IMG/VR virus record: IMGVR_UViG_3300030339_000865
Location: 1 to 46,841 of that record
Reading direction: 5' to 3' (one strand)
From: a virus
Length of the DNA: 46,841 nucleotides
How positions within the stretch are numbered: position 1 is the stretch's first letter; the number at the start of each line of letters is the position of its first letter. The notes beneath the pieces are model-generated. The model saw nothing but the letters and a program-made list of their open reading frames with translations. It did not search any database and had not been told where the DNA came from. Positions 8,910-42,341 of this stretch are shown piece by piece. The translations under genes were made by a program, and so were the position numbers.

Positions 8910-11900
8910 ATGGAAAATACTAAAGATACCAATGATTGGGTAGTAGCCAATTTATCATTACCAGGAGCCCCAATAGAAGAATTTAAACAGAATAATATAA
9001 CTCCAGAAAATACAACTTTAAAAGACAAAGATTTTTATAAGGGAACTAAAACTATACAAGAAAACTTTACTAATCCTGAGAATGGAAAATTTGATGAAGA
9101 TAAATATGATCAATTCTATAATTCTATGTTATATACTTATAATGAGTATGCTAAACAGGATACTTTAGAAAAAACAGGTAAAGATTTTGAGTATGCTCCC
9201 TTTGATATATTTGCTCCTCAGAATGCTAAGAGAGTACAGGATTTATATAAAATTGAAAAAGTAAGAAATCCTTTTAAAACTAAAGTTGGTATCGAGGATT
9301 TTAATTATAGAAGTAAACCAGAATTATCTTTAGAGGAAATTGCACAAGATAATACTGTAAGAGATCATCTTACAGGAAAAGCTCTTGATTGGACACCTAA
9401 TGATGATAGTGCTACAGGAATTTTTGATTTCTTAAAAAGGCCTACTTTAGTAGTTGGACAATATGATGAAGACGGTGAACACTATGATGAATTTGAAGGA
9501 AGAAAAATAAAACATAAAAAAGGTGATTATAAACTAGATGAAGAAGGTAAACCATTTTTTGAGACACTTGGAGATAGAGAAGTTTATAATAGAGAAGTAT
9601 TAAATTGGTCAGATACTCTTACTAAAGAAGGCACTTGGTTAAACAAGTATGATTTTATGGATTCAGATGGTTTGGATAAATCTCATATTGGAGCTGTTAT
9701 GAAAATGGCTTCAAAAGTAGCTCCTTTATTTATACCGGGAGTCGGAGAAGTTTATGCAGCCGGAATTCTGGGTGTAGATCTTATGAATGTAATTCCTATA
9801 TTATTAAAAGCAGGAATTGGTTCTATTATTGGAGATGCTGATACAGATAAAAGTTACTGGAAAACATTAAGTAAAGTACAAGGAGTTGGTAAAGTCCTCT
9901 CTGCTAATTCAGTATCAGATTATGCTAAAAGCAGTACATTTTCATTTGAGAATGTGAGTTCTATGTTGGGTGATGTATTTACTCAATTATATACACAGAG
10001 AGCTATAGCCTCCATTCCTAAATACATAGGAATGAATAAAGCAAGTGTTGCACCATTAACTAAAGTTGCTGAAAATTTTGATGATGCTACAATAGCAAAA
10101 ATTTTTGAAGGTTCTTTAACAACAGGTGAACGTCATATGATACTTGAAAAAGTACCAGAAGCGGCTAATTATATTGATAGGGCTATTAAATCTGCAAAAT
10201 TGTCAAGAGCTTTAGCTACTACATATATGTCAGCTACTTCAGCTGCTGGTGTGGCAGATCAAGCAAAAGCTATTGGATTAGATGAGAGAGATACTGGTCT
10301 TTTATATTTAGGAACTTCTTTAGGTTTCTTTGGTATGATGACTTCACTTCCTATTGGAGAATGGGCTTTAAAAGGAATAGGTCTTGAAGAAACTGGTGTT
10401 CTGGTAAATAGAGGAATTAAAGATGCTGCTCAGCCTTTTATTGAAGATCTAAAAAGATTGGGTGCTACTGTCGCTAAAACTCCAAGAGATTATCAAGGAA
10501 TTTTTAAAATTGGAAAAAGTATTGGACAAGCAGTAGGTAAAAAATTAAGCCATGTAGATGGTTATATAGGAGCTATGGCTTCAGAAGGTACGGAAGAAGT
10601 GACTGAACAAGTCATGCAAGATTCTATCACAAATATATACAATGGATTGTCTTCTTTAGGATTGACTTCTTCTAAGGATCCTAATAAACAATTTAGTTAC
10701 GGAAGTGCTTCTGATATAGCAGCAAATTATGCCATGAATTTCTTCGGTGGTGTAGCTGGTGGAGCTATGTTTAGATTTCATGATCAAATGTCTAATTTAG
10801 GTAGAGAAAATGATGAGTCTACAAAAGATATATACTGGTTAATTAGAAATGGATATAAAGATAAATTAGATGCTGCTACTAGTAAATTAATGGAGAAAGG
10901 CTATTTTGGTAGTACTACTTTAACAGCAGAACAAGTAGATATTGATTTACCAGGAGCTGGTAGAAAAACTGTAATGAGACCTAAGGGAGCTAATGATTTA
11001 TCTCAAAATGAAGTAATTGGTAAAACCCTGTTAGGTTTATTTAATAATGTACAAAATCAAATATTTCAAGAAGGAGTAAAATCAGATAGTGAATTGACTA
11101 GAATACTGGATACTAGATATGATTTAGTAGTAAAGGATTTAAAAGTAAATAGTTCTCTGTATGAAGATCATACGAATTTAGTAAATGATATATTAGGTTT
11201 AAACAATGATATTGCTAAAGCTCTAGCAGTTCCTACAGAAGTAGGGGCTTCAGATGCATCAGTTTTGGCTACCGCTGAAGCTGTTAAAGCTATGCAAGTA
11301 AAGCTTGGAGAAAAGAGAGAGGCTTTAAGACTAATTACTTCTGGCGAAGCGTTCCCAGCTTATCAAAGTCAAGCTTTATTTAATATGAGTGAAGTATTGA
11401 ATGGTGCTTTTGGCAACACTTCAGTAGATGATTTGTCGTGGAATAAATATAAAAAACACTATAAATCATTAACAGAGGAAGAGAAAAAAGAGATTGATGA
11501 AGACTATGTAGCTTGGAAAGCCACAAATAAAAAAGATATGCTAAAAGCTGGTTATAAAACTTTTACTTATCTAAATGAAAAATTTTCTCCAGTATTAGCA
11601 GAATTAGCTAAATATGCTGAACAAAGAAAAGGACATTATACTTTAGTTGATGCTTTAGGTACTAAAAATAGATTTAATTTATCAACAAGTACTTTAGATG
11701 AGATTAGTAAAGCTAAAAATTATCTAGGTAAAACTCTCACAGTAAGTGAGGCATTAAATGATGCTATTAATGGAAAGAAGGATGTTAATTCTATTTTAAA
11801 AGCAGTAGATGATATCATGAATTTTGTTAGTAACCCTAGTATTGATAAATTTGATCAAAATTTCACTAGTGAGATGAGGGGTGTATTTGATTCTCTAACT

Positions 11901-14900
11901 TTAAATGATATGATTGGAGAAAATGCTTCTTTATTTGATACATTAGCAGATGATAATTATTTTAATGAAGAAGGATTGCCTGGAACTTCTTATGATATGA
12001 TGTCTATAGATGACCTATTAAATGAGAACCTTACAAGTGTATTTGCTAAATTAGAGGAGGCAAAATTGCATAATAAAGATAATAAAGGGGCTTTAGATAC
12101 GATCACTAAAATCTCATCTTATATACTAAGTAATCCTAATGTTAATTTAATCAATAATAAAAAAGTAGAATTTGAACAATTGACTAATGGTAGAACTATT
12201 AATACTTTAAATGAACTTTTAGATAAATTTGATTTTTTACAGAATGGCACAAAATCTACTATAACACAATTACTTACAAATGAATTTGATGCTTTAGGTA
12301 AAGTAAATGATATTACTGATTATCAAATTTATAATCCTAATACCATAGAGAATCTTGAAAATGCTAAAGTTTTATTGGAACGTTTACAAGCATTAGTAAT
12401 TGCTTCTACAGAATACAATTATAAAAAACATGGTATTTCTGGTTATAATACAGTACTCAACAACACTTTTCCAGATATGGAATTAGGAGTAATTACCCAA
12501 GAACAAGCTACACCATTACTTAAAGAAATTCAACAAGTTAATGCGAAAATTGAGTTATTTTTAACATTATCTTCTTTTAATAGAGAGAGTAAAATAAAAA
12601 ATAACATTGCTGCAGGAGTAAACATGGAGACTGTTTTCTTTGGACATTTACAAGACGGTCCTTTTAGAGATTATCTAAATAATATTAGAATTGAAGATGA
12701 GGATTTTGTTACAGAAGATATGTCTAGATCCATAGAGGATGCTAAAGTAATGAAAAAAGCTTCTGAAATTAAGACTAGTCAAGAAGGTTCATTACCTTCT
12801 TCTAATGAAGAAGTATTTCAATTTGAATCAGAACGATTAAAAATCAATAAATTATTTTTTGAGAGAGTTAGGGAACTTACTAATAAATATGGCGAAGATA
12901 AAATACATGAAAAATTATTTAATAATCCCGCAATTAAAGCTTTATTTCCTATAGATCAAATGAGTCAAGCTACTCCTACTAATTTTAATAGTACAACTAC
13001 TCATGTTCAACCATTGGATTTATTCATATGGTGGAATACCATGATTACAGTAGATCCTGCTAAATTTTATGCAGAATTAAGAGGAAATGAAACAGAACCT
13101 GGTAAATATGATGGTTTAGAAACTAGTAAGTTTGTACCATTCTATGCACAAGAATATGCTGCTAAAATTATATTAAGTGCTCTGGATAATCAAAGTTGGA
13201 TTAACAAATCTCTTAATTATTTAGGAGGAGTTGATATAGATGGTGCTCCTATAACTGGAACATTCATGGAAAAATTACATGAAACTTTTAAAAATTTTAT
13301 ATTAGTTGATGGTGTTCCCGGAGCTGGTAAATCTTCTGCTGTAGGTTATACTGTAGCTAAGATATTAAAAAGAAGAGGAAGTGCTTTCTGGACAGCTGGT
13401 GCTTATGATACACAAGCTAAACAATTAGAAGAATTATTGGAGAATCCTGATGGAAATGTGTCTTTTGATAAAACTAAATTATTAGCACAATTTTTTAGTC
13501 CAGAAGCTATTATAGAAATAAATAATTCTAATACAACTTGTTTAAAAGCAAAAACTACAATAGAAATAGATGCTGCATTAGCTGGGAATAAATTAATGTC
13601 AGTTAATAGAGTTATTGTAAAACAAGCTGGCAGAGAATATGATAAAATTAAATTAGGAGAAATCAAATCTGAAGCATTTTTAGATGTAAATAAAAGTAAA
13701 TTACCTGCTGCTATCTTTATAGATGAAATTACACATTTTTCTATGATTGAACTGGAAGCATTAAGACAAGCATTTATACGTTTAGGAAATTCTGCTCCTT
13801 TAATAATAGGATTAGGAGATTCATTACAAAATGGATTTAGAATTGTAACAGAAGATCATAATATAAATATGTTTCGTACTTGGAATACTCCTAAATTATC
13901 AGCATCTCTTAGAACTTCTAATGATATAAAAAATCATAATCTTATAAATATAAGAGCCAGATACGGACTCATTACTAATGAGTATAATAAAGTTTATAAT
14001 GAACAAAGTCTAGAATATGCAGCTGTTAAAGCTAACATACAAAGTTTACATAATCCAGATGATGAATCTACTTGGTTTAAACTGGGTTATCACGTTAATG
14101 CTGATAATAATATTTTTGGAGAAAAAGTATCAACTAGTAATGATGCTTCTAAAGATTTAATTAATCTTTTAAACACAACTACAGAAACTATTGGTTATAT
14201 TACTGATAATAACACTTCTAGTAATGAAATTTTAAACGGATTAACGCCATCTCAAAAAAGCAGACTTGATATAAAAGATGTTAATACTGTACAAGGACTT
14301 GAATATGATCACGTTATAATTGATGTGAATTGGAATGAACTCTCAAAAGATTCTCATTTTAGTCCCCTAAATTTTATTTCGAATATATACACATTAACTA
14401 CTAGATCTAAAGTTGGAAGTGTTATAGTAGATAGGGGATTTAGTAATAATGATTATTTAGTAGTTAAATCTCAAAAACTTAACCAAGTAATTGATGTTAA
14501 ATTGGATCCTAAATTATTAACAAAATATAAAGAAGAGAGAGTAGCAAATATTTCTAAATTAGCTAATATCTATGATGCACCAATTGATCCTGGGGTATCT
14601 ACAAAACCTGTGGCTACTTATACTGAACCTCCTTTATTACCTGTATCTGTTACTGAAAGTTTTGCCTCTGAAATTCTAAGACAGGATGAAGAAGCTTTAG
14701 CAGCAGAAGCTGGTAATAAAACTGATAATAGACAAGAAATTGCTTTAAATCTTGCACAGAAAAATACTCATTTAATGACTTATCCTTATTATGAGAGAAT
14801 AGGAGTTCCTGGAGAAGATGCATTGATATTTGGTTTAGAAGCTGATGAAAAACCTGATTTAAAATTTTTAATGGATATTAAAAATGCAGTATTTTATGGA

Positions 14901-17072
14901 GCAGGAAAAGAAAAAATATTAGAAATTTTAAATAATAAAGGAATTGATAATATTGATAAATTAAATGTTGTAGTTAGAGCTTCAAGATACAATCCTAATA
15001 CTGATGTAGACAACTCATTATTACGTACAGGAAAGAGGGATCCTGATAAAGAACTAACTAATAAAGATGCATTTGTTAGAACTGCTCTTAGAATCGAACG
15101 TTCTGATAATACTGGTAAATTAAAACCTATTTATATTACATTAGGAGTATTTGCTTCAGCTAAAAGTACTTCAAAATATGATTATAAAAATAAAACAGAT
15201 TTATCCAAAACTCTTAAAACATTTTTAGACAAAGTAGAAATAGGTTTAAAAACAGCCCCTAGTATTGATTTAAGTATTGATCATTCAAACCCTTTTGAGT
15301 TATTAAAGTATACTACTAACATACAGTTAGATTATCTAGATAAACCAATTAGTTTTAAAGATTTTAAATCAGACTTAGACAGAACAGCTGTTATTTCTCC
15401 TATTTATATTTTCACAGGACATAATAGTTCTGTAGCAGGAAGTCCTTCTCAAAATCAACGTTTGAATGAGTGGATAAAAAAAGGAAATAACTCAGCTAAA
15501 GAAAGATCATTAGCAGGAAGAGCAGTAACATTTGTTTCTTTTGACAATAAATTAAAAGCTAGTGAACTGGCTGATAAATTTGCAGAAGAAATTATGACTA
15601 ATAGTTCTAATCCTAGAGTTAAAGCAGTAATGCTAAATTCTACTGGAACAGATCCTAAAGTATGGTTTGAAAATGCTTGGAATACATTAGCTGATGCTAA
15701 AAAAGCAAAGGTAGAGAGAGTAGCTATGGGGACATTAGCTTCTCAACATATGGCTACTTTTATGGCAAGTACTATTAAGATGATGGCTGAATCTCCTAAG
15801 TATACTGGAAAAACTATTGGCATCAAAAATATTGCTAAAGCTATAATTGAACGTTTAGGGCCAGGTGAGAAAAACATGAATATTCTAGAAATAGATAGGA
15901 ATGAAGCAGAAGCTTTTAGATGTAAAGTTAAAGCTTATACTGACGATAAAATTAAAAATCCAGAAGAATATTTAGCTTCAGCTACTGCTGGATTCTTAAA
16001 ATTAAAACCTAATCAAAGAATATCTGCTTTTAATTTTAACCATACTTATAGACTTTTAGTCGGAATGGGTATTGCTATGAATGGAGGTATTCATGCAGAA
16101 AGTGCTGATGTGAAACATTATTTTGAACCTATTTCTAAATACACAACAGAATATGGAGATTTCTTAGAAGAATTTTATGGGTTACTTAGAAAAGAATTTA
16201 AATATGGAATATTTTCTCATCCTTCTTATAATATTAGAGGAAAACGTGCTAATCCAGATTATGCACAATTAGTGGAAAATGAAGAAGATGATTTTGAAGT
16301 AACAGCGAGAGCTACACTTCCTAACTCTTTATTAGATTTAAAACTAATAATGACTGGTCCAGAAGCACTTAGTAAAGAGCAAATAGAGAAAACTAGTAAC
16401 TTAAATAGTATTGCTGATTATATAAGTTTAAAACAAAATACTATTTCCACATATGTCATAGATGATTTTATTAGAGGATCTGATATGTTTAGTAAACAAT
16501 TTGAGGATGGAAAAGAAACATCACTCTCAGCTGTTATGTCTAATATAGATGCTCTATATGATACATTATCAAAATCTGTATATACTACAGAACGTATGTA
16601 TGAGGGTATACGTAATTTACAATGGACTAATACTGAGGTCTCTAAAGAAGATGCTGTTAATCTAGAGAATAAAATTGAGAATAAGGGCAATGGTTCTTTT
16701 GTAATTACAGGAAATAATGGTAAATTTGACTTCGAAATAAAATATAATATGAATGAAACAATCGAAGAAAATAAAATGAAAATATCAACTAATGAAAGAC
16801 CTATTCCTTTAGAAGAAGTTAGTGCACTTATACAAAAAACTACTGATTTAGTAAATAAATTTAAAATGCAATATTCAGATATTATTCCTGAAGATATATT
16901 TGCAAGTGTACTAAATGCTTTATCAACAGGAACAAGAGAAATAGCACCAGGAAGTGCGATGCAGATGGCATTTGCACAATTATCTGCACAAGCTCTTACA
17001 TTGGGTGATGAAGCATTACTAAAAACTTTACATGATTACACTAATACAAAAGACATCAATACTTGTAACTAA
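8910..17072 (+). CDS. Giant virion protein P1 with embedded SF1 helicase domain (2720 aa)
   Basis: Residues about 265-305, 460-485 and 615-630 are hydrophobic and may insert in membrane. The middle is helical and polar. Residues about 1455-1840 hold a complete superfamily 1 helicase set: Walker A GVPGAGKSS (K1474), Walker B IFIDEITHF (D1605, E1606), motif III IIGLGDSLQNGF, motif IV ASLRTSNDIK, motif V NTVQGLEYDHVIID (Q1795, G1796) and motif VI LTTRSK (R1832). The C-terminal 880 residues match nothing I recognise. Only about three cysteines are present, the last being the penultimate residue. The stop overlaps the next start (TAATG). Placement directly before the virion RNA polymerase suggests a packaged motor or unwinding partner for early transcription or DNA entry; that is inference. 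Confidence 0.8.
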   Translation: MENTKDTNDWVVANLSLPGAPIEEFKQNNITPENTTLKDKDFYKGTKTIQENFTNPENGKFDEDKYDQFYNSMLYTYNEYAKQDTLEKTGKDFEYAPFDIFAPQNAKRVQDLYKIEKVRNPFKTKVGIEDFNYRSKPELSLEEIAQDNTVRDHLTGKALDWTPNDDSATGIFDFLKRPTLVVGQYDEDGEHYDEFEGRKIKHKKGDYKLDEEGKPFFETLGDREVYNREVLNWSDTLTKEGTWLNKYDFMDSDGLDKSHIGAVMKMASKVAPLFIPGVGEVYAAGILGVDLMNVIPILLKAGIGSIIGDADTDKSYWKTLSKVQGVGKVLSANSVSDYAKSSTFSFENVSSMLGDVFTQLYTQRAIASIPKYIGMNKASVAPLTKVAENFDDATIAKIFEGSLTTGERHMILEKVPEAANYIDRAIKSAKLSRALATTYMSATSAAGVADQAKAIGLDERDTGLLYLGTSLGFFGMMTSLPIGEWALKGIGLEETGVLVNRGIKDAAQPFIEDLKRLGATVAKTPRDYQGIFKIGKSIGQAVGKKLSHVDGYIGAMASEGTEEVTEQVMQDSITNIYNGLSSLGLTSSKDPNKQFSYGSASDIAANYAMNFFGGVAGGAMFRFHDQMSNLGRENDESTKDIYWLIRNGYKDKLDAATSKLMEKGYFGSTTLTAEQVDIDLPGAGRKTVMRPKGANDLSQNEVIGKTLLGLFNNVQNQIFQEGVKSDSELTRILDTRYDLVVKDLKVNSSLYEDHTNLVNDILGLNNDIAKALAVPTEVGASDASVLATAEAVKAMQVKLGEKREALRLITSGEAFPAYQSQALFNMSEVLNGAFGNTSVDDLSWNKYKKHYKSLTEEEKKEIDEDYVAWKATNKKDMLKAGYKTFTYLNEKFSPVLAELAKYAEQRKGHYTLVDALGTKNRFNLSTSTLDEISKAKNYLGKTLTVSEALNDAINGKKDVNSILKAVDDIMNFVSNPSIDKFDQNFTSEMRGVFDSLTLNDMIGENASLFDTLADDNYFNEEGLPGTSYDMMSIDDLLNENLTSVFAKLEEAKLHNKDNKGALDTITKISSYILSNPNVNLINNKKVEFEQLTNGRTINTLNELLDKFDFLQNGTKSTITQLLTNEFDALGKVNDITDYQIYNPNTIENLENAKVLLERLQALVIASTEYNYKKHGISGYNTVLNNTFPDMELGVITQEQATPLLKEIQQVNAKIELFLTLSSFNRESKIKNNIAAGVNMETVFFGHLQDGPFRDYLNNIRIEDEDFVTEDMSRSIEDAKVMKKASEIKTSQEGSLPSSNEEVFQFESERLKINKLFFERVRELTNKYGEDKIHEKLFNNPAIKALFPIDQMSQATPTNFNSTTTHVQPLDLFIWWNTMITVDPAKFYAELRGNETEPGKYDGLETSKFVPFYAQEYAAKIILSALDNQSWINKSLNYLGGVDIDGAPITGTFMEKLHETFKNFILVDGVPGAGKSSAVGYTVAKILKRRGSAFWTAGAYDTQAKQLEELLENPDGNVSFDKTKLLAQFFSPEAIIEINNSNTTCLKAKTTIEIDAALAGNKLMSVNRVIVKQAGREYDKIKLGEIKSEAFLDVNKSKLPAAIFIDEITHFSMIELEALRQAFIRLGNSAPLIIGLGDSLQNGFRIVTEDHNINMFRTWNTPKLSASLRTSNDIKNHNLINIRARYGLITNEYNKVYNEQSLEYAAVKANIQSLHNPDDESTWFKLGYHVNADNNIFGEKVSTSNDASKDLINLLNTTTETIGYITDNNTSSNEILNGLTPSQKSRLDIKDVNTVQGLEYDHVIIDVNWNELSKDSHFSPLNFISNIYTLTTRSKVGSVIVDRGFSNNDYLVVKSQKLNQVIDVKLDPKLLTKYKEERVANISKLANIYDAPIDPGVSTKPVATYTEPPLLPVSVTESFASEILRQDEEALAAEAGNKTDNRQEIALNLAQKNTHLMTYPYYERIGVPGEDALIFGLEADEKPDLKFLMDIKNAVFYGAGKEKILEILNNKGIDNIDKLNVVVRASRYNPNTDVDNSLLRTGKRDPDKELTNKDAFVRTALRIERSDNTGKLKPIYITLGVFASAKSTSKYDYKNKTDLSKTLKTFLDKVEIGLKTAPSIDLSIDHSNPFELLKYTTNIQLDYLDKPISFKDFKSDLDRTAVISPIYIFTGHNSSVAGSPSQNQRLNEWIKKGNNSAKERSLAGRAVTFVSFDNKLKASELADKFAEEIMTNSSNPRVKAVMLNSTGTDPKVWFENAWNTLADAKKAKVERVAMGTLASQHMATFMASTIKMMAESPKYTGKTIGIKNIAKAIIERLGPGEKNMNILEIDRNEAEAFRCKVKAYTDDKIKNPEEYLASATAGFLKLKPNQRISAFNFNHTYRLLVGMGIAMNGGIHAESADVKHYFEPISKYTTEYGDFLEEFYGLLRKEFKYGIFSHPSYNIRGKRANPDYAQLVENEEDDFEVTARATLPNSLLDLKLIMTGPEALSKEQIEKTSNLNSIADYISLKQNTISTYVIDDFIRGSDMFSKQFEDGKETSLSAVMSNIDALYDTLSKSVYTTERMYEGIRNLQWTNTEVSKEDAVNLENKIENKGNGSFVITGNNGKFDFEIKYNMNETIEENKMKISTNERPIPLEEVSALIQKTTDLVNKFKMQYSDIIPEDIFASVLNALSTGTREIAPGSAMQMAFAQLSAQALTLGDEALLKTLHDYTNTKDINTCN

Positions 17073-20000
17073 TGAGAAATAACTGCGGTTTAATATCAAC
17101 AAACGCGTCCATCGAACTGATGGGCGTGTTTAATAATTTTATAAAAACACTCTATAAAAAAGGAGAAAAAGATAACTATGCAAGATTAGAGGATAAAATT
17201 GCAGAATATCTATATGACAAACATAGAAAAGATGACAAAAATAATGCTCTAACTCCTGAGGAAAGTCATTTTATTGAACAACAGTTTATTTTATACACAG
17301 CTGCTGTTAAACCTATTCTAACTAAAAGTAGAGTAGATACTGCATTTGCAAAAAAAATATGGGGAGATGCTACAGTTGTTAAGCCTATAGAATTGTTTCT
17401 TGCAGATGTGCAAAAAGCACTGATTGAGGGAAGTGATACTACATTAACAGAAAAAGTAAAAAATCTATATGAAATTTCTCCAGAAGAAACTACTTTAGTA
17501 CCTGCACCAAAAGTAGATTTAATAGCAACACCTCCTTTAGAAAGTGAAACTAAAATTGAAAAAATTACAAATGTTAGTAACAAAGTTGAATTAAAAGAAG
17601 CATTTGCTAATGCAAATACGGCTTACTTAGCATTAGAAAGACGTGTATCTAATCATATAGTTAGGAATTATCTTATAAATCAAGAAACAAATGTTTATAA
17701 TGCATCTAGTGATGCTGTAGATAAATCAGTTAAAGCAAACAAAGTTAGAATTTATAGAGAATTGCTTAGAAATTTTGCACAAAAAGGTCTGGTCTTTTCT
17801 GAAAATGAAAAAGAATATTATGTAAAAGGTAGAATAAATCCTAATGTAAAAAATGTTCTAGATAGAATTGCAAATCACTACGATAAATTTAATGGTAGTG
17901 GAGTTACTAATGTAATGTTAGAGGAATGGACACAAACTAATTTAGGAGAGATTTCTGATTACATTAATTTTGTAATTATGTCCAATTTTGATAATCTATT
18001 ATTATCATATGGTAAAGGAATATTTAAAATTTCAGATAGTTATTTAAATTCTACTAATGAGAAATACGATGAACCTAAATATGTCTTAGACATTGAGAGT
18101 AATATAAATGACAGTATTTTTCAAACTGGGGAATATAATTTAGCTGATGAACAATCTTCTTTATTTAAGATGTTAATTTCTTCTATGCCTTCTGTAACAT
18201 TTGATAAACAAATTTCTCATGATAAAGAAATTGATTTAAATACTGTTAATACAGTAATGGCTAAGTTATTACATGGTAAATTATTAGAGGGTGCTCCTAG
18301 TTTTGATCCTACTAACAGTATGGAAAGTATAAAATCTTTACTAGAATTTGTAATTAATAATTTTACAGGATCTGGTAAAAAAATAAAAAGTTTTGATAAA
18401 GTAGAAAAAGACACACTTTTATCAGTTTACTTATATTTTTTTAGAAATAATGATGAATTATCTACTAAAAAACCTAAAGTTATTTTAGATGAGGCATTAA
18501 GATCTGCTATACAAGTTGCATATGGAAATGATACAGAAACTGGATTTAAAACTATTCCATCATTCTATCATTTAGCTTCAAATAGCGAAGTAATTTCTGG
18601 GATGGATTACTTTAATGTCATGGTAAGTAACTTTGATAAAACCTACTTAAATGAATATACAGAGTATACTTACGATAAAGAAAGGGGTACTGTAACAGTT
18701 AATAGTCCTACAGAACGTTTAATAAACAGTTCTGAAATTCAATTTACAAATAATTTAAATAATTATATTAATCAAGAATTTGGAGAATCCTATTTAGAGA
18801 GTAAGTATAAAGACATAACCATCGAGGCTTCTGATACTGATAAACCAATAGTTCGTTTTGAATTATCAAAAGGAGTATTTGCTACTGTAAATTTAGCAAA
18901 TGGTAGTATGAGTATGACTGATGGTATTAAAAAGACTGACTCTAAAGAACTTAATTTTAAAATAACAACTGAACAAGAAAATAAATTAGTAGAAATCCTA
19001 AATAAAATCTTACCTCAACTCCAATTAAGAGATGATAAAGGAAATAATTTCTACTATCCAATATTTACTCAAATATTTTCTCCTACTTTAGATGATCATA
19101 CTGAAGCTATTGTGGCTTTAACTAAAGTAGCTGGATATACTGCTTATACTTCTTCTATGGTTAATACTGTAGGTAAACAAGACTTATTGAACACCAAATG
19201 GATAAAAGGATTCGGATCTGATAAATCTCCTTATATTGCAGATGATGAGGAATTTTCTATTGCTCGTATGTTTCCTGGCTATAGTGATATAGCTAAAAAT
19301 ATAGGTAAAGGGCTCTCTATTATTAATGGGGAGACTCATAAAGCAGTTATTAAAGTAGGTAACGTAACTGTTCCTACTATAGGTGAGGTACGTCATTTAT
19401 ATGCACTTCCAAAATGGAGAAACTGGCTGATGAAACAAAATGGTAATAAATTAACAGGTATGCCTATAGCTAGTAATTTATTTATGAGAAATCCAGATTT
19501 TTTAAATGGATTTAAAATCAGAAGTTTTGTGAAGTCTGGAGAAGAAGTAAAACATTCTTCAGAAATGGCTCCTTTAGAAATAGCTACTACTTTTATTATG
19601 CATGATTACATAGCAGCTGCTAATAAATATAATGAGGTATATATTCAATCTACAGTATTTGCTGATAAAAATAGTCATAATAGTGTGATAATAAGATTAA
19701 ATGAAGAAGTTCAAATTCCAGGAATTACTAATAAAATTGCTTTAGGTAATGTTACAGCAACAGAATTAAAACGTGCTGCATATTTAAATAATAATACTTA
19801 TTATAAAGCTATTTCTGAGAAATTAACCTCTACTTATATTCCTGTGTTACAATCTTTATTGCCTGGTGTAACAATCGATAATACATTAAAAGGAGTAAAT
19901 GATGCTATGTCTAAAGTACAAGAACAAGTATTTAGAGATGCTTTTTATAAATTTTATAATGGAAAAGAATACATCATAGAAGATTTAGGTATAGAAAAGA

Positions 20001-27164: not shown

Positions 27165-27165
27165 T

Positions 27166-30100
27166 ATGGCATGTACACTAACGTTCACCTTAGGTGGAAT
27201 AAAATATACTATACCTGCAGAAGGTAAATTGGCTGATTATGATGGTAAAAATTTAACTGATATACTAGGATCCTTGGATTATAGTGTGCAAACTAAATTA
27301 TTGAATAATATCTTAGCTTATTCTAATATTCAACCATATGAATACACTGAAAATCCTACTGTCACAAATTTAATGGCTTCAAATGATATTCCAAATATTA
27401 GTATTAGTAAATTAACTGAAAAATTAGGAGATTTAATTCTACCTGATGATTCAGATCATTTTAAATTACGTCAAGTAGTATTATCTTTATTTGATTGGCC
27501 AGGTGGTGCTAAAAATATATCTTTAGTTTCTAATAAAATTACTGATGGTTCTAGAAAAGGCCACGGTGTCTTTATTTCTCATACTAAAAGTATATATGTT
27601 CATGCAGAACCTAATGATAAAATAGAGACTTTAGAAGATCATTTTCTAGGTTCTAATAGCAAAGTTTTATTAGAAAGACTTGCTCATGAATTAACACATG
27701 GTGCATGGGATGATATGCTTACTAATAATCCAAGTATAGCTAAATTAGTAATGGATGAATTTAATTCTAAAAAAGCTGGACTTCCAGATACTTTAAAAAG
27801 TATTATTAGTAGTATTACTAAAGTTAAATCTATAGAAGGGCAAGCAAAGGAATTGTTTGCATATTATTTTAGTAACTTCGATTTACAAGGGGCTTATAAA
27901 AGCCAGGTACTTCAGGAATACTTTGAAAAGTTGGGAATTGAAGTACCTGTGGAAAAATTAGCTTCACTTTCTACTTCTAATTTTGGAAATTATCCTCCTT
28001 TATCTTCTTCTAGTTTTGGCACTGAAATGTCTTATGAAGATAAAATGAATGATTATGATTCAGTTTTATATGATTATGCAGATAATGATCCTGATTGGAG
28101 AAAAAAATATCCAGATCTAATGTCACCATTTACAGGTGATACAAACGCTGCATTACAAAAAATGGTTGCCGAAATGGATCCTACCACAGAGAACTATCAA
28201 GCAGATAAAGCTAAACAAATTTTAGCTAGATTTCATGCTAATACCTCTGAGATACAAGCATCAAAAGAATTTAAATACCAGAAGTTTGATATATCTTATG
28301 AAGAACCTATTACAATTGATGATTATAATAGAGATATTCAAATTTTAAGACTGGCTGAGAATGATTTAGTATTAGTAAGTAAAGACATATTTTTAAATCC
28401 TCAAACAAAAGAGTGGGAAGAAAGAGTAGTTAAAAAAGAAGAGAAGAAATCTTCTTATAGACCAGTGATTAGTACTTATATTAACTCAGCTAATGAGGTC
28501 ATGGTGAATCTACCAGTTAAAGATGGTAGTGGTAAGACTTATTCACTTCCAGCTAGATACGTTGAAACAATACGTAAATATGCAGGGGATTTAATTGATA
28601 TTCCTTATAATAAAGAAAAAGCTCAAGAGTATTCTGATTGGTTAAAAGCTAATGTTAATTCGGCATATGGAGATGATCCAGCTCCAGGAGCTATTGTTAA
28701 AGCTATAGATATAGTAGATGAAAAAACAAATAAATCATTTCAAATATCTGTGGCATCTAATTATGATTCATATGGATTTAAATTTTATAATGCAGAAGCT
28801 GCTAAAGGAATCTATGATGGAGCTGAAGTTGGTGACGTAGTTAAAGTATACATTCCTGCTAAAAAAGGAGAGAGTGCTGGTGGATATAGGGGAAGAATCT
28901 TACGTAAATTTGGTAATTCAGTAGAAGTAGTTTCTGCAAAAGGAGGAATAGCTATTGTTAAATTATCTTCTCTTAATGAAATTATTTACTTAAAGGAAAA
29001 TCATGGAGATTTTCTAGCACAAGTTGAAAATATTGATAAAGCTACTATTAGCAAAGATTTAATAGATGATGGTAATAATCAATTTAGAAAATATCGCAAG
29101 ATAAATTTTGTAGCTCAAAATAAAAAAGAAACAGAATGGAAAGATAAAGTAAATGATTACTTTGATATTTATTCTAAAGAAGATACTGATCTAAAAATAC
29201 AACGTAGACGTAATGAAGTAAAGAAATTAAAAGCAGGTGATCTTATAAAAGTTAAGTGGTATTTTAAAGATGAAATTACAGGGGATGATAAAGAAGCTTC
29301 TCACTGGTATCCAATTGTAACGAAGACTTCTGATACTATTTATTATTACAATTCTACATCTGAAAAAGTTTCTAAAGTCAATATTTTAGATGGAAAAAAC
29401 TATGAGATATATGGATTAGCTATAAATAACTCTCAATCAGCTAGATTATTTGATGAGTTTAATGCTATTCGTAAAAATATAGAAGGCTTACGTAGAGATG
29501 ATACAGGAGCATTACTCTCAGATGATGCCATTAAAAATAACTTAGGAGAAGCTCTTAGAAATGCTGAACCATCTAGTTTACAGGATATTTATAATATTAC
29601 TGAAATAGAAGATGTTGATGAAGTAGAAGTAGGTGAAGATAATGATCTTAAGTTAGCTGTATCTCAATCACAGAGAGGTAGTATTCTAAAAGCATATGTC
29701 TTTGATATAGATGAGGAAGGTAAAGATAAAAAAACTAAAATATACAAATGGTTTGTCGTTACAGGATTTGATGAAAATACTGGAAGACCTATTTGTGTTA
29801 CTCAAACTAAAGATAAGAATGGTAAAACAGGTGTTTATAAAGAATATCCTATTGAATACCAAGACATCAAAGCTGTTGGTCATAGATTAACTGATAATTC
29901 AGAATTAGGTATTTTTGGTAATAAAACTTTAAAAGAATATCTAGATAAACTAAAGAAAACATTTTCTGGTATAAATGATCCAATTTTTATAACTCAAGAA
30001 GAGACTCCTAAATATGAGAGATCTAATAGAACGTTTAACAATGCTTTATATGGTTATCTCAAAAATGGTAAGATGGGATATGCAGTATCAGATAAATATA

Positions 30101-31398
30101 TAGTAGAGAATTTTAAAGATAAAGCTGATTTTGAAGAATGGAAGAAAATAACTCCTGAAGCAAAATCTTTAACTTGGACTTATACTGGTCCTAAACTTTA
30201 TATTTTAAGAGGTAAACAATATATGAAGAAATTATTTACTAATTACCTAGAAGTACATGATTTATTAAATTATGAACCTAATATACATGATAATGTAGGA
30301 ATTGGTGATATAATAACTGAATCTTGGAAATATCAAGGAGATGACGTTAGAATGGATTCTTTAGTTATTGGAAAAACTCCTACTGGATTCTGGGTGGAAA
30401 GATTAAGTAAAAGTCCTTCTGGAGAATTTCTACCAGTTAAGAAAAAAATATATAGACATAGAGAAGGGGTGGAATATCCACAAATCTCTGATATATATAT
30501 TAATAAAAAACATGATACAACTTCTACTTCTAGACAAGATGCTAAAACTAGACAAACTTCTTTATTAAAAGGTAATGAGAATTTTGAAAAAAAGATAAAA
30601 AGCCTAGAACAAGATACTAAAGACAGAAAAGCTGCTGGTATTAAGAAACAAGTTAAAGCATCTATGAATACTGATAATTTCTATAAAAGTAGAGATTCTG
30701 AAAGTAAAATTATGGAAATTGTAGATAAATTACAATCTATATATAATGTACCTATTATCACTTTAAGAACAGATGAAATAGCAGAATCTTTTGGACCTAT
30801 GTTAGGAGGAGATGCTACTAAAGTAAGAGGATTTATCTATGAGGGTAAAATTTATATTAATTTAGATAATGCATCATCAGCAGAACCTCTGCATGAAATG
30901 GCACATATTATTTTAGAGAGTATAAAAGCTAATGATTACTCTTTATACCAAACCATAATAAACTCTGTTAAATCACATCCATATTACGATGATATAGCTA
31001 AGAGTTATCCTAATAGAAGTCCGGAAGATTTAGATGAAGAAGTATTTGTTACAGTTTTTGGTGAAAAATATAGAACTAAATTACATAGTACTTATAATCA
31101 ATCATGGTATGATCAAAATGAAGATATTTTTACTAATATATGGAATAACATAAAAAACATGTTTGCTTCTATATTTGATAATAAATCTATCTTAGATATC
31201 CCAAATGATGAACTCTCAACGATGTCTTTAGACGAATTAATTAGTACCTTTGGAGATAATTTAACTGAAGGAAAGTTTAAACATGTTTTAAACTATGATA
31301 CATCTACAGTAGAAAGAAAAATAACTAATTTAAAAACTAGTTTACTTTCAAATGACGATGAATCAGAAAGTTATCTTAGAAAAACTTGTAACACTTAA
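27166..31398 (+). CDS. Giant virion protein P4 with two zincin (HExxH) motifs and barrel-like repeats (1410 aa)
   Basis: Two metalloprotease-type motifs are visible: LAHELTHGAW (H174, E175, H178), with a possible third ligand in AKELFAYYF, and PLHEMAHIIL (H1243, E1244, H1247), followed by DEEVFVTVFG, a plausible third-ligand helix. Between them at least five segments share a hydrophobic-Gly/Asn-Asp-hydrophobic start to a beta-rich block (about residues 399, 556, 691, 838 and 1047), looking like repeated SH3-like barrels. Zincin domains are known in crAss-like giant proteins. Possible targets are phage proteins, for self-processing, or host proteins after ejection. Cysteines lie at residue 3 and third from the end, with only one other. 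A one-base gap separates it from P3. Confidence 0.78.
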   Translation: MACTLTFTLGGIKYTIPAEGKLADYDGKNLTDILGSLDYSVQTKLLNNILAYSNIQPYEYTENPTVTNLMASNDIPNISISKLTEKLGDLILPDDSDHFKLRQVVLSLFDWPGGAKNISLVSNKITDGSRKGHGVFISHTKSIYVHAEPNDKIETLEDHFLGSNSKVLLERLAHELTHGAWDDMLTNNPSIAKLVMDEFNSKKAGLPDTLKSIISSITKVKSIEGQAKELFAYYFSNFDLQGAYKSQVLQEYFEKLGIEVPVEKLASLSTSNFGNYPPLSSSSFGTEMSYEDKMNDYDSVLYDYADNDPDWRKKYPDLMSPFTGDTNAALQKMVAEMDPTTENYQADKAKQILARFHANTSEIQASKEFKYQKFDISYEEPITIDDYNRDIQILRLAENDLVLVSKDIFLNPQTKEWEERVVKKEEKKSSYRPVISTYINSANEVMVNLPVKDGSGKTYSLPARYVETIRKYAGDLIDIPYNKEKAQEYSDWLKANVNSAYGDDPAPGAIVKAIDIVDEKTNKSFQISVASNYDSYGFKFYNAEAAKGIYDGAEVGDVVKVYIPAKKGESAGGYRGRILRKFGNSVEVVSAKGGIAIVKLSSLNEIIYLKENHGDFLAQVENIDKATISKDLIDDGNNQFRKYRKINFVAQNKKETEWKDKVNDYFDIYSKEDTDLKIQRRRNEVKKLKAGDLIKVKWYFKDEITGDDKEASHWYPIVTKTSDTIYYYNSTSEKVSKVNILDGKNYEIYGLAINNSQSARLFDEFNAIRKNIEGLRRDDTGALLSDDAIKNNLGEALRNAEPSSLQDIYNITEIEDVDEVEVGEDNDLKLAVSQSQRGSILKAYVFDIDEEGKDKKTKIYKWFVVTGFDENTGRPICVTQTKDKNGKTGVYKEYPIEYQDIKAVGHRLTDNSELGIFGNKTLKEYLDKLKKTFSGINDPIFITQEETPKYERSNRTFNNALYGYLKNGKMGYAVSDKYIVENFKDKADFEEWKKITPEAKSLTWTYTGPKLYILRGKQYMKKLFTNYLEVHDLLNYEPNIHDNVGIGDIITESWKYQGDDVRMDSLVIGKTPTGFWVERLSKSPSGEFLPVKKKIYRHREGVEYPQISDIYINKKHDTTSTSRQDAKTRQTSLLKGNENFEKKIKSLEQDTKDRKAAGIKKQVKASMNTDNFYKSRDSESKIMEIVDKLQSIYNVPIITLRTDEIAESFGPMLGGDATKVRGFIYEGKIYINLDNASSAEPLHEMAHIILESIKANDYSLYQTIINSVKSHPYYDDIAKSYPNRSPEDLDEEVFVTVFGEKYRTKLHSTYNQSWYDQNEDIFTNIWNNIKNMFASIFDNKSILDIPNDELSTMSLDELISTFGDNLTEGKFKHVLNYDTSTVERKITNLKTSLLSNDDESESYLRKTCNT

Positions 31399-31408
31399 TA
31401 TAAAATAA

Positions 31409-34400
31409 ATGAGCAAATGTAAATTTACCTTAACAGTAAAAGGAAATAATATAGAATTTGATACCGAAGAACAGTTAAATGCATATCTAAAAACTCAATA
31501 TGACTCTCTTTCAAGAGGTCATATTGGGGGAGATGTGGAATTATCTACAGTATTAGAGGGTAAAGAAAAAACCAAATTAGAACAAACTTTAAATAAACTA
31601 CAAGCTATAGCTGCTAAAACTCCTTCTATAATTACAGTAGAGTTTAATGAAAATGGAGAAAGAATAATTAAATCTAGTTATGAAGGTGTAACTAAGCGTA
31701 TTAAACGTTTAGCAAAGGCTGGGACATTGCCTGTTACTTATTATGATGAGGCTAATTATATCGATAATCGCCTGATTCAAATTAGAAGTGCATTACGTAG
31801 AGGAGTTGGTCCAGAAGATTTAAAGAAAGATTATGCCAATATTATATCTAAATTTTCTAAAGGTGTAGAACAATTAAAGGGAGAAGAATCTGATACTTAT
31901 GATAAGCTCACAAAAGCTCTTATAATGCCCCTTATATTAAAAGAACAAGCACAAAGAAAATTACTAGGAACATTCGGAACCAATTTACATAGAATGGCTG
32001 AGACTTACTTTGCTAATAGGTTAGAGAACTCAGATAAGTCATTCTCAATTAATAATTTTCCAGCTGGTATTACTAATTTATCTGTTGGAGGTAAAGAAAA
32101 CTATTTACAATATCTAAAAGAACTTACTACATATTTAAAAAAGGAACATGGTGATGATGTAGTTTTACTCCCAGAATATAAAATATATGATGACACAACT
32201 AAACTAGTAGGTATCATTGACTTATTAGTTGTAGATAGTTCTGGTAAAGTACATGTTTATGATTTTAAAGCTTCTTATAAGGATCCATCTGATTGGCACT
32301 CTGCTAAACAAATTGAATTTAAATATCAATTAGGAATATATTCCAACATGCTTAAAAATAAAGGATTTGATGTACAAAGTATTCAAGTGCTTCCTATTAC
32401 TATGTTAGATATTAATTTTGAACAAGAGACAATACCAAGATTATCTGAATATTTACCTATAGATGCATCTCCTACTGAAGATATTAAATATAATATAAAT
32501 AACAGTGTTATTCCATTAACTTCAGCTTCTTTCTATGAATCCACTACTAATAGTAATGCTATTATTACTGAAAACTTAAAAAGAGCTTGGGGATATAATC
32601 TAAAATTAAAGGCTTCATTTGCTAATGTACAGTCATTTAAAAATAGTACTAGAGTAACTACTGACATAAATAAACCTGGAGTATTTACTTTCTGGGATAA
32701 TATTAAAAGAAAATTTATTGATAGTACAGCAGAATCTTTAGATAAGAATATAGAAGCATATTTAAAAACAGAAGCTGAAGCTACATCTTCTGAATTAATT
32801 CGTTTTAAAGCATGGATGATAGCAAGTATTGCTGGTACAAAACAATTAATGGATTTTAAAAGAAGAACTGAAATTGGTAATATTCATATGGTGAGGGCTT
32901 TTGAAAAATACACTAAAGGAGGATGGACTTTAGTAGCAGACGACTCTGATTTGGATAATTTAGGAATGTTAATGTTTGTAAATGAATCTAATAAATCAAT
33001 TGAGTTCGTATCATATACAGTTAATGCTCTTAATAAGAAAGTTAAACTCCCTATAGGTTCTACTATACTTGGTAATTTCACGTCTGATGCAAAAGGATTA
33101 GAATTACCTGATTTGTTACCTGCTACAAATGGTAACATCGAACTGCTTAAAACTTATTTTTATATCAATGAAAATGCAGAAAAATTAAAAGAATACACAG
33201 TTGGTAGAGTAATGGCATTTAATCCTATTAACTCAGAATTTGTAGTAAATAATAATGATGTTTTAAAAACGAATTTTAGTTATTTATTATCTAGATTAGA
33301 AGGAAAAAATAGTATTTTAGAAGTAAATACAACTGATAAATTATCAGCACTTCATAATCAATTTGTAGAAATTTTAACTGAATCTTCTACCTCACCTTCT
33401 GAAAAAGACTTAGTTAATAAATACTTGACTACTTTAAATGATTATCAGAATACAGGTCGTATGGAAAGTCTTAAAATTATACAAAGAGATTTACATAAGT
33501 TAATGAATACATATGGACAACATAAAGTAAATAGTTTTTTACTATTTGAAGAAAAACTTTATGGGATGATTAGTGAAGCTATTGTAGCAGAAGCTGGTCT
33601 TAGAATTTCTACCTCAGAAAAAGATATTCCTAAATATAGTGCAAATGGTACTATGTTATCAAATCCAGGAAGTATAGGATCTCGTAATTTACGTGTCTTT
33701 GTAGATGTTATTAAATTAGCTATGCATAAAATACGTAGAAGACAAACTGAATTTAAAGCCACAAATGTTGATATTTTTGATAAATATCTTACATCTAAAG
33801 GTAAAACTAATTTACGTAGAGCCACTGTGGGTGATAATATTAGAGCATATGATTCTTTATTTGAGGGAAATACTCCTAATAAAGAACTTATTTTAAAAAA
33901 TCCTTATGATAGTAAATCTCCATTAAATAATGAGGAAAGAGAATTTCTTAAATACTTTTTAAAAGAGATCAATTTCAGAAGGTTTAATACTCAATCGTTA
34001 GATTCGGAAACTGCTCAAGATGCTATAAGTAGTAAAGAATGGTTTAAATTACCCTTATTAAGAGCATCAAGTTCTTCTAAAGCTTCAAATATGAGTCTTA
34101 AAGGTTTACGAGATGCTACTGCTGAGAATTGGAATAGTTTCTTAAATACTAATCATTTATTTGATGAGAAGGATGAATTAGATGTAAAATCCAGAAGTGA
34201 AGATATGTTCACAATGTTTAATGAGTTTAACTTTCATGCACATCCGGATGCTCGTATGAAACTAATTGAACAACAAAGTCCGAATGCATTTGAAACAAAT
34301 TTAGAGAGAGTTCTAGATAATTTTGTATTCTCTTCTATAAGAAAAGAGGAGTATGATGATATGCTACCCATAGCTAATGCTATTAGAACTACTATTGCTT

Positions 34401-35839
34401 ATAATGGATTTGGTGTAAATATTCCAGTCCCCAATGCTTTAGAGTTTATGGATAAATATTCTCAAGCAGCTGTATTTAATGAGAAATCAATACCACCTGA
34501 ATTAAGAGGAGTATATAAAGGAATTAGTATTATTAAAGATATTACTAGTAAAATGAATTTAGGTATCAACCCTTTAAGTGGATTTGTAAATACTTTACAA
34601 GGATTATGGGGAAATGTGTCTAGAATTACTGCTGGTAAATACCCAAATATGTTCGGAAAAGATGATTATTTCTGGGCTTTGAATCACTTCTGTAAAGATT
34701 CTTCTGAATCTATGACTAAATTAACTGTTCTTGAAAACTTAAATATGATATATGGTATTAATAACATGGATATCAATATCTTATCAGAAGTTATGTCTAA
34801 GAATAATAGTGGACTTTTAAATTTTAAATCTAAGTACCTATACTGGATGGCTTATGCTCCTGATTATTTTAATCGTATGACTTTATTTATTGCTCAAATG
34901 CATAAAGATGGTTGTTTTGAAGCACATAAGATGGTTGGAAATCAAATGGTTTATGATTGGACTCTGGATAAAAGATTCTCTGAATATGCAAAGGGAAACA
35001 CTTCTCACCCAGATTACAACAATCAATTCTCTTTATATATGGCTGTTTTAGCAGATTTCAATAAAGAAGGTTATAATTTAACAAAAGGACAAGCTTTACC
35101 ATATGCTTATACAGGAGCTCAAAGAGAAAGTATGAAAATGTTTTCAGATAGTATTCATGGATATTATGATCATGAAAGTAAGACTCTTGCAAATAATACT
35201 ATTTTAGGAGTTCTATTCTTTCAATTTAAAACCTGGATTACAGCTAAAAAAGATCAATGGGCGTTACATCCTGATACTTATGCTATCGGTGATTATGGAC
35301 CTGTTATCATAGACGGAGTAAAACAATTCATTGATGCAGAAGGGAATCAAACTACAGAAGACACAGGTATGCCGCTTATGAAAATGCAAGGTTCTTTTCA
35401 AGAAGGAATACTATATTCTTTAAAAGGAATGGCTTTAGATTTTCAAGAAGCTAAATGGGATATAGGTAAATTATGGGAGATGACTAAAGAACATCCAGAA
35501 AGAATGTCTAATATGAAACTTATGCTTTTTGATTTAGGAGTAGTTATAGCCATGGCAATTACTACAGGTCTTATTGATTGGGATCAATTAAAAACAGACG
35601 ACACCTACGCCTATACGATGTATAGAGCTATTATAAGATCTAGTTCTGATTTAAATGTTTTAAATAATGTAACTACTGTGTTAGATATGAAAAAATCACC
35701 TTTTATGTCTTTTAATTATATGGGAGATTTAATTTATGGAATGGGTCCTGTATTAACAGGAGATCAACAATTTTCTAAGTACTTATTTACAAATACTGGA
35801 CTTTTACGACCATTTACCCCGTTACTACCAACAAAGTAA
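31409..35839 (+). CDS. Giant virion protein P5 with RecB-like PD-(D/E)XK nuclease domain (1476 aa)
   Basis: Residues about 185-320 form a RecB/Cas4-type nuclease core: LHRMAETYF (H194, E198), LPEYKIYD, LVGIIDLLVVD (D271), VHVYDFKAS (D285, K287) and the QxxxY motif QLGIY (Q307, Y311). The rest is unassigned. The C-terminal 300 residues contain aromatic helices (VLFFQFKTWI), a single hydrophobic segment (LGVVIAMAITTGLIDW) and the end LLRPFTPLLPTK, in the style of crAss-like terminal giant proteins. Such a nuclease might degrade host DNA or process injected DNA; that is inference. Cys4 lies near the start but none is near the C-terminus, where the gene cluster ends. A 10-nt A/T leader precedes it, and a strong terminator follows 6 nt after the stop. 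Confidence 0.8.
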   Translation: MSKCKFTLTVKGNNIEFDTEEQLNAYLKTQYDSLSRGHIGGDVELSTVLEGKEKTKLEQTLNKLQAIAAKTPSIITVEFNENGERIIKSSYEGVTKRIKRLAKAGTLPVTYYDEANYIDNRLIQIRSALRRGVGPEDLKKDYANIISKFSKGVEQLKGEESDTYDKLTKALIMPLILKEQAQRKLLGTFGTNLHRMAETYFANRLENSDKSFSINNFPAGITNLSVGGKENYLQYLKELTTYLKKEHGDDVVLLPEYKIYDDTTKLVGIIDLLVVDSSGKVHVYDFKASYKDPSDWHSAKQIEFKYQLGIYSNMLKNKGFDVQSIQVLPITMLDINFEQETIPRLSEYLPIDASPTEDIKYNINNSVIPLTSASFYESTTNSNAIITENLKRAWGYNLKLKASFANVQSFKNSTRVTTDINKPGVFTFWDNIKRKFIDSTAESLDKNIEAYLKTEAEATSSELIRFKAWMIASIAGTKQLMDFKRRTEIGNIHMVRAFEKYTKGGWTLVADDSDLDNLGMLMFVNESNKSIEFVSYTVNALNKKVKLPIGSTILGNFTSDAKGLELPDLLPATNGNIELLKTYFYINENAEKLKEYTVGRVMAFNPINSEFVVNNNDVLKTNFSYLLSRLEGKNSILEVNTTDKLSALHNQFVEILTESSTSPSEKDLVNKYLTTLNDYQNTGRMESLKIIQRDLHKLMNTYGQHKVNSFLLFEEKLYGMISEAIVAEAGLRISTSEKDIPKYSANGTMLSNPGSIGSRNLRVFVDVIKLAMHKIRRRQTEFKATNVDIFDKYLTSKGKTNLRRATVGDNIRAYDSLFEGNTPNKELILKNPYDSKSPLNNEEREFLKYFLKEINFRRFNTQSLDSETAQDAISSKEWFKLPLLRASSSSKASNMSLKGLRDATAENWNSFLNTNHLFDEKDELDVKSRSEDMFTMFNEFNFHAHPDARMKLIEQQSPNAFETNLERVLDNFVFSSIRKEEYDDMLPIANAIRTTIAYNGFGVNIPVPNALEFMDKYSQAAVFNEKSIPPELRGVYKGISIIKDITSKMNLGINPLSGFVNTLQGLWGNVSRITAGKYPNMFGKDDYFWALNHFCKDSSESMTKLTVLENLNMIYGINNMDINILSEVMSKNNSGLLNFKSKYLYWMAYAPDYFNRMTLFIAQMHKDGCFEAHKMVGNQMVYDWTLDKRFSEYAKGNTSHPDYNNQFSLYMAVLADFNKEGYNLTKGQALPYAYTGAQRESMKMFSDSIHGYYDHESKTLANNTILGVLFFQFKTWITAKKDQWALHPDTYAIGDYGPVIIDGVKQFIDAEGNQTTEDTGMPLMKMQGSFQEGILYSLKGMALDFQEAKWDIGKLWEMTKEHPERMSNMKLMLFDLGVVIAMAITTGLIDWDQLKTDDTYAYTMYRAIIRSSSDLNVLNNVTTVLDMKKSPFMSFNYMGDLIYGMGPVLTGDQQFSKYLFTNTGLLRPFTPLLPTK

Positions 35840-35881: not shown

Positions 35882-36514
35882 TTATGCTTGTAATTCTTGT
35901 ATTTGCTTTACCATATCATATAATTTAGGTTTATATGTAGAATCGGATGCATATCCTGTTTTCGCCATAATGTCTACTGCATCATATGGATCTTTTACAC
36001 CAAATAATGGCTTATATCGTTTATTTTTAGCTAAAAATTCAAAGTATCCTTTAACTCCTTCCTCAGGAGTATTATAAGCTCTGAATGTTTGTTTTACTTT
36101 ATAATTTCCTTTTTCTGGACTATATTCAGTGGTCATTAATTCTTGAGTTTTTCCCTTCCAAGAAGAATCTGCTTTAATACCACCTATATTATTACCAGGC
36201 ATGTGTTTACCCCACCCAGTCTCAAGTGCTACTTGTGCTAATACCATATCACCTGATAGACCAATACTATTAGCAGTATCACCTATTAATTTACCAAAAT
36301 GCTTCATAAATTCACGTGAACTGCCTGATAGTTTATTTACTACAGGTTCTCCTAAAGTTTCCTCTTTTTTCTCGGATGTATAATCAGATCCTAAGCCTGT
36401 CATAAAATCCATATAATCTTTTAAATATCCAGATGGATCTATTTTTGAAGATTCTCCAGGTTGTGATTTATAATCAGTAAATTTTTCTTTTTGTGTTTGA
36501 TTTAATAGTTCCAT
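35882..36514 (-). CDS. Glucosaminidase-type endolysin (210 aa)
   Basis: Residues about 80-205 match the FlgJ/glucosaminidase family of peptidoglycan hydrolases: MVLAQVALETGWGKH with the probable catalytic Glu98, then NNIGGIKADSSWKGK, QTFRAYNTPEEGVKGYFEFL and KTGYASDSTYKPKLYDMV. The first 70 residues are polar linker. No signal peptide or transmembrane segment is present, so export would need a holin or another route, and no holin gene is obvious nearby. It is the last gene on this strand before the convergent hairpin. A separate candidate promoter lies just upstream. The role is inferred as host lysis; tail-linked wall digestion at entry is an alternative. Confidence 0.85.
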   Translation of the reverse strand: MELLNQTQKEKFTDYKSQPGESSKIDPSGYLKDYMDFMTGLGSDYTSEKKEETLGEPVVNKLSGSSREFMKHFGKLIGDTANSIGLSGDMVLAQVALETGWGKHMPGNNIGGIKADSSWKGKTQELMTTEYSPEKGNYKVKQTFRAYNTPEEGVKGYFEFLAKNKRYKPLFGVKDPYDAVDIMAKTGYASDSTYKPKLYDMVKQIQELQA

Positions 36515-36533
36515 TTTTTAGTTTTTGTTCAGA

Positions 36534-36587: not shown

Positions 36588-36589
36588 AA

Positions 36590-42330: not shown

Positions 42331-42341
42331 TATCTAAGTTT

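Follow-up and report, generated by a model that had tools for sequence, protein, structure and literature searches.

Cysteine pairs at the breaks between giant cargo proteins of crAss-like phages suggest a covalently coupled chain

Five giant proteins and the cysteines at their ends

The stretch of DNA analysed here, which we call the window, is the viral contig IMGVR_UViG_3300030339_000865 from IMG/VR, with a length of 46,841 nucleotides. Its forward strand encodes five giant proteins in a row, P1 to P5, and our subject is the cysteines that stand at the ends of these proteins. We translated the open reading frames (ORFs) and located the cysteine codons by coordinate. P1 (8910..17072, 2720 residues; cysteines 1544, 2338 and 2719) is the first protein of the chain; it ends with NTCN and has no cysteine at its N-terminus. 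P2 (17072..24667, 2531 residues; cysteines 5, 983, 2097, 2208 and 2529) starts with MRNNC and ends with NCNG. P3 (24660..27164, 834 residues) starts with MDKGC and ends with IEC, and the translation confirms the claim of an earlier, sequence-only reading of the window that it has only two cysteines, at positions 5 and 834. P4 (27166..31398, 1410 residues; cysteines 3, 877 and 1408) starts with MAC and ends with TCNT. The last protein, P5 (31409..35839, 1476 residues; cysteines 4, 1095 and 1169), starts with MSKC and has no cysteine at its C-terminus.

All four internal breaks have a cysteine on both sides. On the forward strand, the two codons lie at 17064-17066 (TGT) and 17084-17086 (TGC) in the P1/P2 junction (17064..17086), at 24656-24658 (TGC) and 24672-24674 (TGT) in P2/P3 (24656..24674), at 27159-27161 (TGT) and 27172-27174 (TGT) in P3/P4 (27159..27174), and at 31387-31389 (TGT) and 31418-31420 (TGT) in P4/P5 (31387..31420). 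P1-P5 contain 16 cysteines in 8,971 residues; eight of them belong to the four junctions, at most five residues from the ends, and the outermost 300 residues at both ends of the series contain none. These are exactly the counts given by the sequence-only reading, and its expectation of about 0.07 terminal cysteines is reproduced as well (16/8971 x 40 = 0.07). Close relatives of the window (80-93% identity) have kept all eight junction cysteines, which taken alone proves little. Note that an in-frame ATG lies upstream of the P3 start, at 24609 inside P2; a relative with 80% identity uses the start at 24660.

Judging from their sequences, P1-P5 are the virion-carried cargo of a crAss-like phage, that is, the virion RNA polymerase (RNAP) and associated polypeptides, and correspond to the cargo of crAss001. 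In crAss-like phages, from the gut as well as from the environment, these giant proteins would enter the bacterium before the DNA. The label crAss-like rests on this RNAP and cargo block. P2 appears to be one segment of the polymerase: it gives a profile match (E value 3.2e-5) to the RNAP of phage phi14:2 (structure 6VR4), and the match falls on the catalytic motif DxDxD, which here lies in one of the giant late-block proteins: DYDID (in GEDYDIDK, 23864-23887, forward strand) is aligned to GSDFDIDK of phi14:2. P2 also contains a DUF7831 domain. P3 would be the C-terminal segment of the polymerase, and it is cut off from P2 only in the lineage of the window. Searches of PHROGs and Pfam with P1-P4 gave almost no matches. 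P1 has a Walker-A-like motif, GVPGAGKSS (13311-13337, forward strand), with a helicase match below the threshold; P4 has two zincin-like motifs on the same strand, HELTH (27685-27699) and HEMAH (30892-30906); P5 carries a PD-(D/E)XK nuclease domain. An AlphaFold model of P3 reached a predicted local distance difference test (pLDDT) score of 61, with values below 50 at the ends (residues 1-35 and 788-834), and a PDB fold search from this model was meaningless. A sequence search with the crAss001 muzzle protein gp44 found phi14:2 and none of the relatives of the window.

Cysteine pairs and breaks across crAss-like phages

A curated set of 33 genomes with 71 junctions was assembled from the giant-protein blocks of named phages and of IMG/VR contigs. 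Where the reading frames required it, TAG was translated as Gln or TGA as Trp, and a few rows depend on manually set starts or ends. At each of the 71 junctions the following protein has a cysteine at position 3-6, never at position 2, and at 70 of them the preceding protein has one at -1 to -11. Given the interior cysteine frequency of 0.15%, chance predicts 0.6 such cysteines on the N-side and 1.2 on the C-side, against the 71 and 70 observed. No cysteine was found at the outer ends (0/29 and 0/32): the first protein of a chain has only a C-terminal cysteine and the last only an N-terminal one. Control genes of the same loci show background rates only (3/86 and 5/86; 2/79 and 13/79). Besides the junction cysteines, 28 of the 95 chain proteins have none at all. 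The junction codons are 121 TGT and 19 TGC. At 20-25% identity the junction cysteine is often the only conserved cysteine, which indicates that it is under selection.

The rule is also seen in cultured phages. In crAss001, gp47 (2341 residues) has its sole cysteine at -3, gp50 has cysteines at 5 and -9 plus one in the interior, and the sole cysteine of gp49 is at position 5; all three proteins have been detected in virions by mass spectrometry (MS; PMC10172136). The phi14:2 proteins gp78, gp77 and gp76, where gp76-78 are annotated as MS-confirmed structural proteins, have four cysteines in 5,398 residues, every one at a junction. MT835470.1, the first distant relative (24-29% identity), has the junctions NCKLNI/MAC, INC/MSC and ENC/MAC; in several of its chain proteins the terminal cysteines are the only ones. 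The rule also holds in p-crAss, Rudgehvirus, crAss002 (where the true start of gp33 is an internal ATG, giving MSC), DAC15, Dulem virus 41, Suoliviridae and Flavobacterium phage Fpv1. The record of Fpv1 (KU599877, Fipvunavirus) does not place it in Crassvirales, yet it has the same RNAP block and the same cysteine rule; this suggests, at the level of sequence, that Fpv1 is akin to Crassvirales.

A second set was obtained by scanning IMG/VR with the phi14:2 RNAP and passing all 80 returned loci through a fixed script (72 loci without near-duplicates). It overlaps the first set in a few loci (for example, L068 is phi14:2), and L106, which has no single RNAP ORF, was left unscored. Among 108 abutting pairs of large ORFs, with near-duplicates dropped, 83 have cysteine on both sides, 20 on neither and five on one side. 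Eighteen of the 20 cysteine-free pairs are boundaries outside the chain, either to the preceding protein, which takes the place of crassvirus cargo C2, or to unrelated genes after it. The other two look like frameshifts: L117, and L101 as judged against its intact near-duplicate L102. Each of the five one-sided pairs is explained by a cysteine at position 7, by an inserted gene (573 residues; GIY-YIG endonuclease) or by a frameshift.

The pairs depend strictly on the breaks. Fully fused chains were found in five complete (5,220-5,639 residues) and six partial versions, and all 11 are free of cysteine; their neighbouring genes have cysteines. The order along the fused chains is gp78-gp77-gp76 of phi14:2, with all three in L140 and gp77 plus gp76 in the others, and this is the order deduced from the cysteine ends. 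There are always as many pairs as there are breaks, and moved breaks bring moved pairs. For breaks specific to one lineage (P2/P3 of the window, first/second protein of W02, second/third protein of G005), the uncut homologues have cysteine in 5 of 26 stretches compared, where 3.9 are expected. In a 13-member alignment of P3 homologues, the C-terminal cysteine (C834) is invariant and the N-terminal one is present only where the protein is cut. The comparison of homologues that the sequence-only reading had set as its test therefore came out in its favour: every intact split carries terminal cysteines, the pairs shift with the splits, and fully fused versions have none. We also observed that a cysteine-bearing N-terminal cap domain is common to two non-equivalent members, the third protein of G005 (residues 1-79) and the second protein of cr50 (1-80); it looks as though an end already able to couple was transplanted when a new break arose.

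The pairs are independent of gene adjacency. In crAss001, DAC15, cr128 and cr126 the first member lies on the opposite strand to the other members, and even so a terminal cysteine is present only at its C-terminus. Pairs are intact across an inserted ferritin-like or endonuclease gene in L074, L088, L112, L118 and L113. In L076, a missing partner with an early cysteine was predicted to lie elsewhere; it was found about 6 kb away, past several tail genes, with a single cysteine at position 3. As for the insertions themselves, the ferritin-like gene (about 165 residues, identified by eye) stands between the RNAP and the last chain protein in L074, L088, L112 and L118, and the GIY-YIG endonuclease ORF at the junction in L113 (17047-17808) ends with IKNCN, resembling the end RIKECN of the preceding RNAP. 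In W01, G004, G011 and G005 an insertion splits the RNAP gene precisely within the codons of the active site (GSDY|DID), and in W01, G004 and G005 this insertion holds an endonuclease-like ORF.

Genes around the chain

Two large proteins, poor in cysteine, directly precede the giant block of the window, as C1 and C2 do in crassviruses; the match is by position only. B (3017..7093, forward strand, 1358 residues) has no cysteine and sits where cargo C1 does, which it resembles in position and cysteine content. A (7094..8908, forward strand, 604 residues), also without cysteine, has the position of C2, directly before P1. Both are outside the cysteine chain. A lysine-rich N-terminal motif of the type K[LF]Q.GG recurs in the cysteine-free proteins at the C1 and C2 positions and in an ORF of 132 residues. 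Its instances are MKFKIKSFQEGG, MKINIKKLQAGG and LQDGG, in the window at 2553-2951, 7094 and the region of 3017, and also in W01, G005, G015 and G016; it is possibly a packaging or cargo signal. The C-terminus of the 132-residue ORF (2553-2951) is SKKC. In Intestiviridae the C1-like protein has a single cysteine near its C-terminus (at -2, -8 or -11; L053 2551-5124, L052 10548-12221 and L056 2490-4763) with no obvious partner. Such single cysteines perhaps make a homodimer or an extra link.

On the other side of the block, the reverse strand at 35882-46841 carries convergent early genes, by eye a ribonucleotide reductase, a ThyX-like protein, a dUTPase, NAMPT, NadE and a DNA ligase. These are genes of nucleotide and NAD metabolism, and their cysteine content is normal.

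A proposed disulfide-coupled chain and its alternatives

Each break has one C-tail and one N-tail cysteine, and pairs and breaks are equal in number. Read most simply, this means that the cysteine pair replaces a peptide bond between the giant proteins. We consider it likely that tail-to-head disulfides turn the virion RNAP and the cargo proteins into a single covalent thread for ordered ejection. Each break would be bridged by an intermolecular disulfide from the C-tail cysteine of one protein to the cysteine at position 3-6 of the next, and P1-P2-P3-P4-P5 would then form one thread, about 9,000 residues long, that corresponds to the single polypeptide of the fused relatives. The disulfides would form during or after assembly; the thread would be extruded through portal and tail in a fixed order, each subunit pulling the next, and the reducing cytoplasm of the host would cut the disulfides and free the subunits to refold. 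A continuous thread would fix both the order of ejection and a one-to-one stoichiometry. We infer the type of the bond, its timing and the role in ejection. The sequence-only reading had proposed such a joining into one chain, and every comparative test run here speaks for it. A phage-encoded thioredoxin, considered as an enzyme required for release, was rejected: it is present in G015, W02 and several named Crassvirales and absent, by Pfam, in G001, G005, G012, G016 and W01, some of which are incomplete contigs.

In crAss001 most of the cargo is kept inside the capsid and has to pass constrictions of < 50 Å partly unfolded, and the order of ejection has been ascribed to packing and protein interactions, with no mechanism given (PMC10172136). 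MS samples of the virion exist in non-reduced and reduced form (PMC10172136), and these data may already hold the answer on linked peptides. For crAss001 we predict the linked tryptic peptides gp47 CNS plus gp50 CITTNSTIEELAAK, with a monoisotopic mass of 1812.8233 (2+ 907.4190, 3+ 605.2817), and gp50 ICGANTLYEL plus gp49 CAIIPQVR, with 1992.0172 (2+ 997.0159, 3+ 665.0130). For phi14:2 they are GEDSNTIC plus MACK (1286.4941) and QECK plus MSCK (971.3875).

Several points weigh against a disulfide-linked thread. The disulfide is deduced from sequence patterns, oxidation is harder to achieve in the anaerobic gut, the home of many of the hosts, and the cryo-electron microscopy (cryo-EM) map of crAss001 leaves the cargo density unresolved (PMC10172136). 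One C-side cysteine, in cr273, lies at -50 in an acidic tail. Starts at internal ATG codons were set by hand in P3, crAss002 gp33, G010 P2 and the fourth protein of G005. In some chains of TAG-recoded relatives there are up to 23 interior cysteines, and the pairing is not uniquely dictated there. Finally, the genomes are phylogenetically related and the counts are not independent, with at least six different break sites involved.

Among the alternatives, the one that survives best is that the cysteine pairs join the subunits by another chemistry, such as a metal ion shared by two cysteines and other ligands, a thioether or something else. The genetic pattern says only that each break needs two cysteine side chains, and the ends of the P3 model (pLDDT < 50) are of too low confidence to give a geometry for the junction. 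On the other hand, the terminal peptides have no conserved His or Cys neighbours of the junction cysteine, and the lack of conservation in the flanking residues argues against a metal site or a protease site. Moreover, the cysteine is never residue 2, so there is no free N-terminal cysteine, with its exposed thiol, for ligation. Inter-protein disulfides are already present elsewhere in the crAss001 virion (PMC10172136). We regard a different chemistry as rather improbable.

Disulfides could also link identical copies of a protein to each other, or the two ends of a single protein, and stabilise its packing. There are several cargo copies per virion (PMC10172136), and the middle proteins have cysteines at both ends. 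Circularisation fails, however, for the first and last proteins, which bear one terminal cysteine each, on the inner side, and pairing between like copies leaves unexplained both why a C-terminal cysteine is matched by an N-terminal one in the next protein and why fused chains have none; we find this quite unlikely.

The remaining explanations, like chance, are excluded or nearly so by the absence of cysteine from the fused chains and by pairs that track the breaks across strands and insertions. As tags docking each protein to capsid, portal or C1/C2, the cysteines would suit proteins that are probably cargo, but the fused chains are cysteine-free yet lie in the same gene block, and A, B and the outer ends have no cysteine, which makes docking very unlikely and largely contradicts it. 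Remnants of sites at which an ancestral polyprotein was processed, the second option of the sequence-only reading, would accord with the coexistence of fused and split versions in a conserved order, but are contradicted by fused versions that have no cysteine at these sites, by selection on the junction cysteines and by pairs that persist on opposite strands and across separated genes, and we give them hardly any credence. A DNA or RNA signal, such as a start/stop overlap or a regulatory motif that incidentally encodes cysteine, might be read from the mostly TGT codons close to stops and starts; it is already contradicted, and next to impossible, given that both codons are used with varying spacing, that the pattern is kept when the partner is encoded on the opposite strand or lies 6 kb off, and that outer ends at the same distances have none.

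We think it probable that an entire order of phages delivers its early transcription machine as a disulfide-coupled train, in which splits are tolerated only if a cysteine pair is gained at the cut. Terminal cysteine pairing is not mentioned in PMC10172136, PMC7886860 or PMC10136315, and our search of the literature on crAss-like phages, which did not cover the RNAP paper of Drobysheva 2021, turned up no previous account of cysteines at the termini or of disulfides in the cargo.

No viruses are more abundant in the human gut than crAss-like phages, and it is an open question how megadaltons of their cargo protein pass in order through a narrow tail. If true, the coupled train would explain the near-absence of other cysteines in the cargo proteins and predict the order of ejection and the ratio of subunits. 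Across thousands of metagenomic phages, the cysteine rule helps to locate the genuine starts of genes, to recognise members of the chain and to spot broken assemblies, and a protein thread that moves through a narrow channel and is released by reduction would be of interest to the engineering of protein delivery.

The closest known system is the RNAP and cargo block of Crassvirales (gp47, gp50 and gp49 of crAss001; gp78-gp76 of phi14:2), which shares the gene block, the DxDxD motif and the cysteine rule. The window differs from it in splitting the chain into five, with a lineage-specific cut inside the RNAP, and comes from an uncultured phage. Coliphage N4, a podovirus, carries and ejects a giant single-chain virion RNAP; it is one polypeptide, and we know of no cysteine-joined series there. 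In Thermus phage P23-45 the virion RNAP is likewise covalently tied to another giant ejected protein, the tape measure protein, but this is a siphovirus and the tie is a peptide bond within one ORF, not a cysteine pair (PMC10770324). The tail hubs and rings of crAss001, also in a crassvirus virion, have inter-protein disulfides seen by cryo-EM which resemble the links proposed here. Those disulfides fix folded parts of the exterior, whereas the proposed ones would join the flexible ends of ejected cargo.

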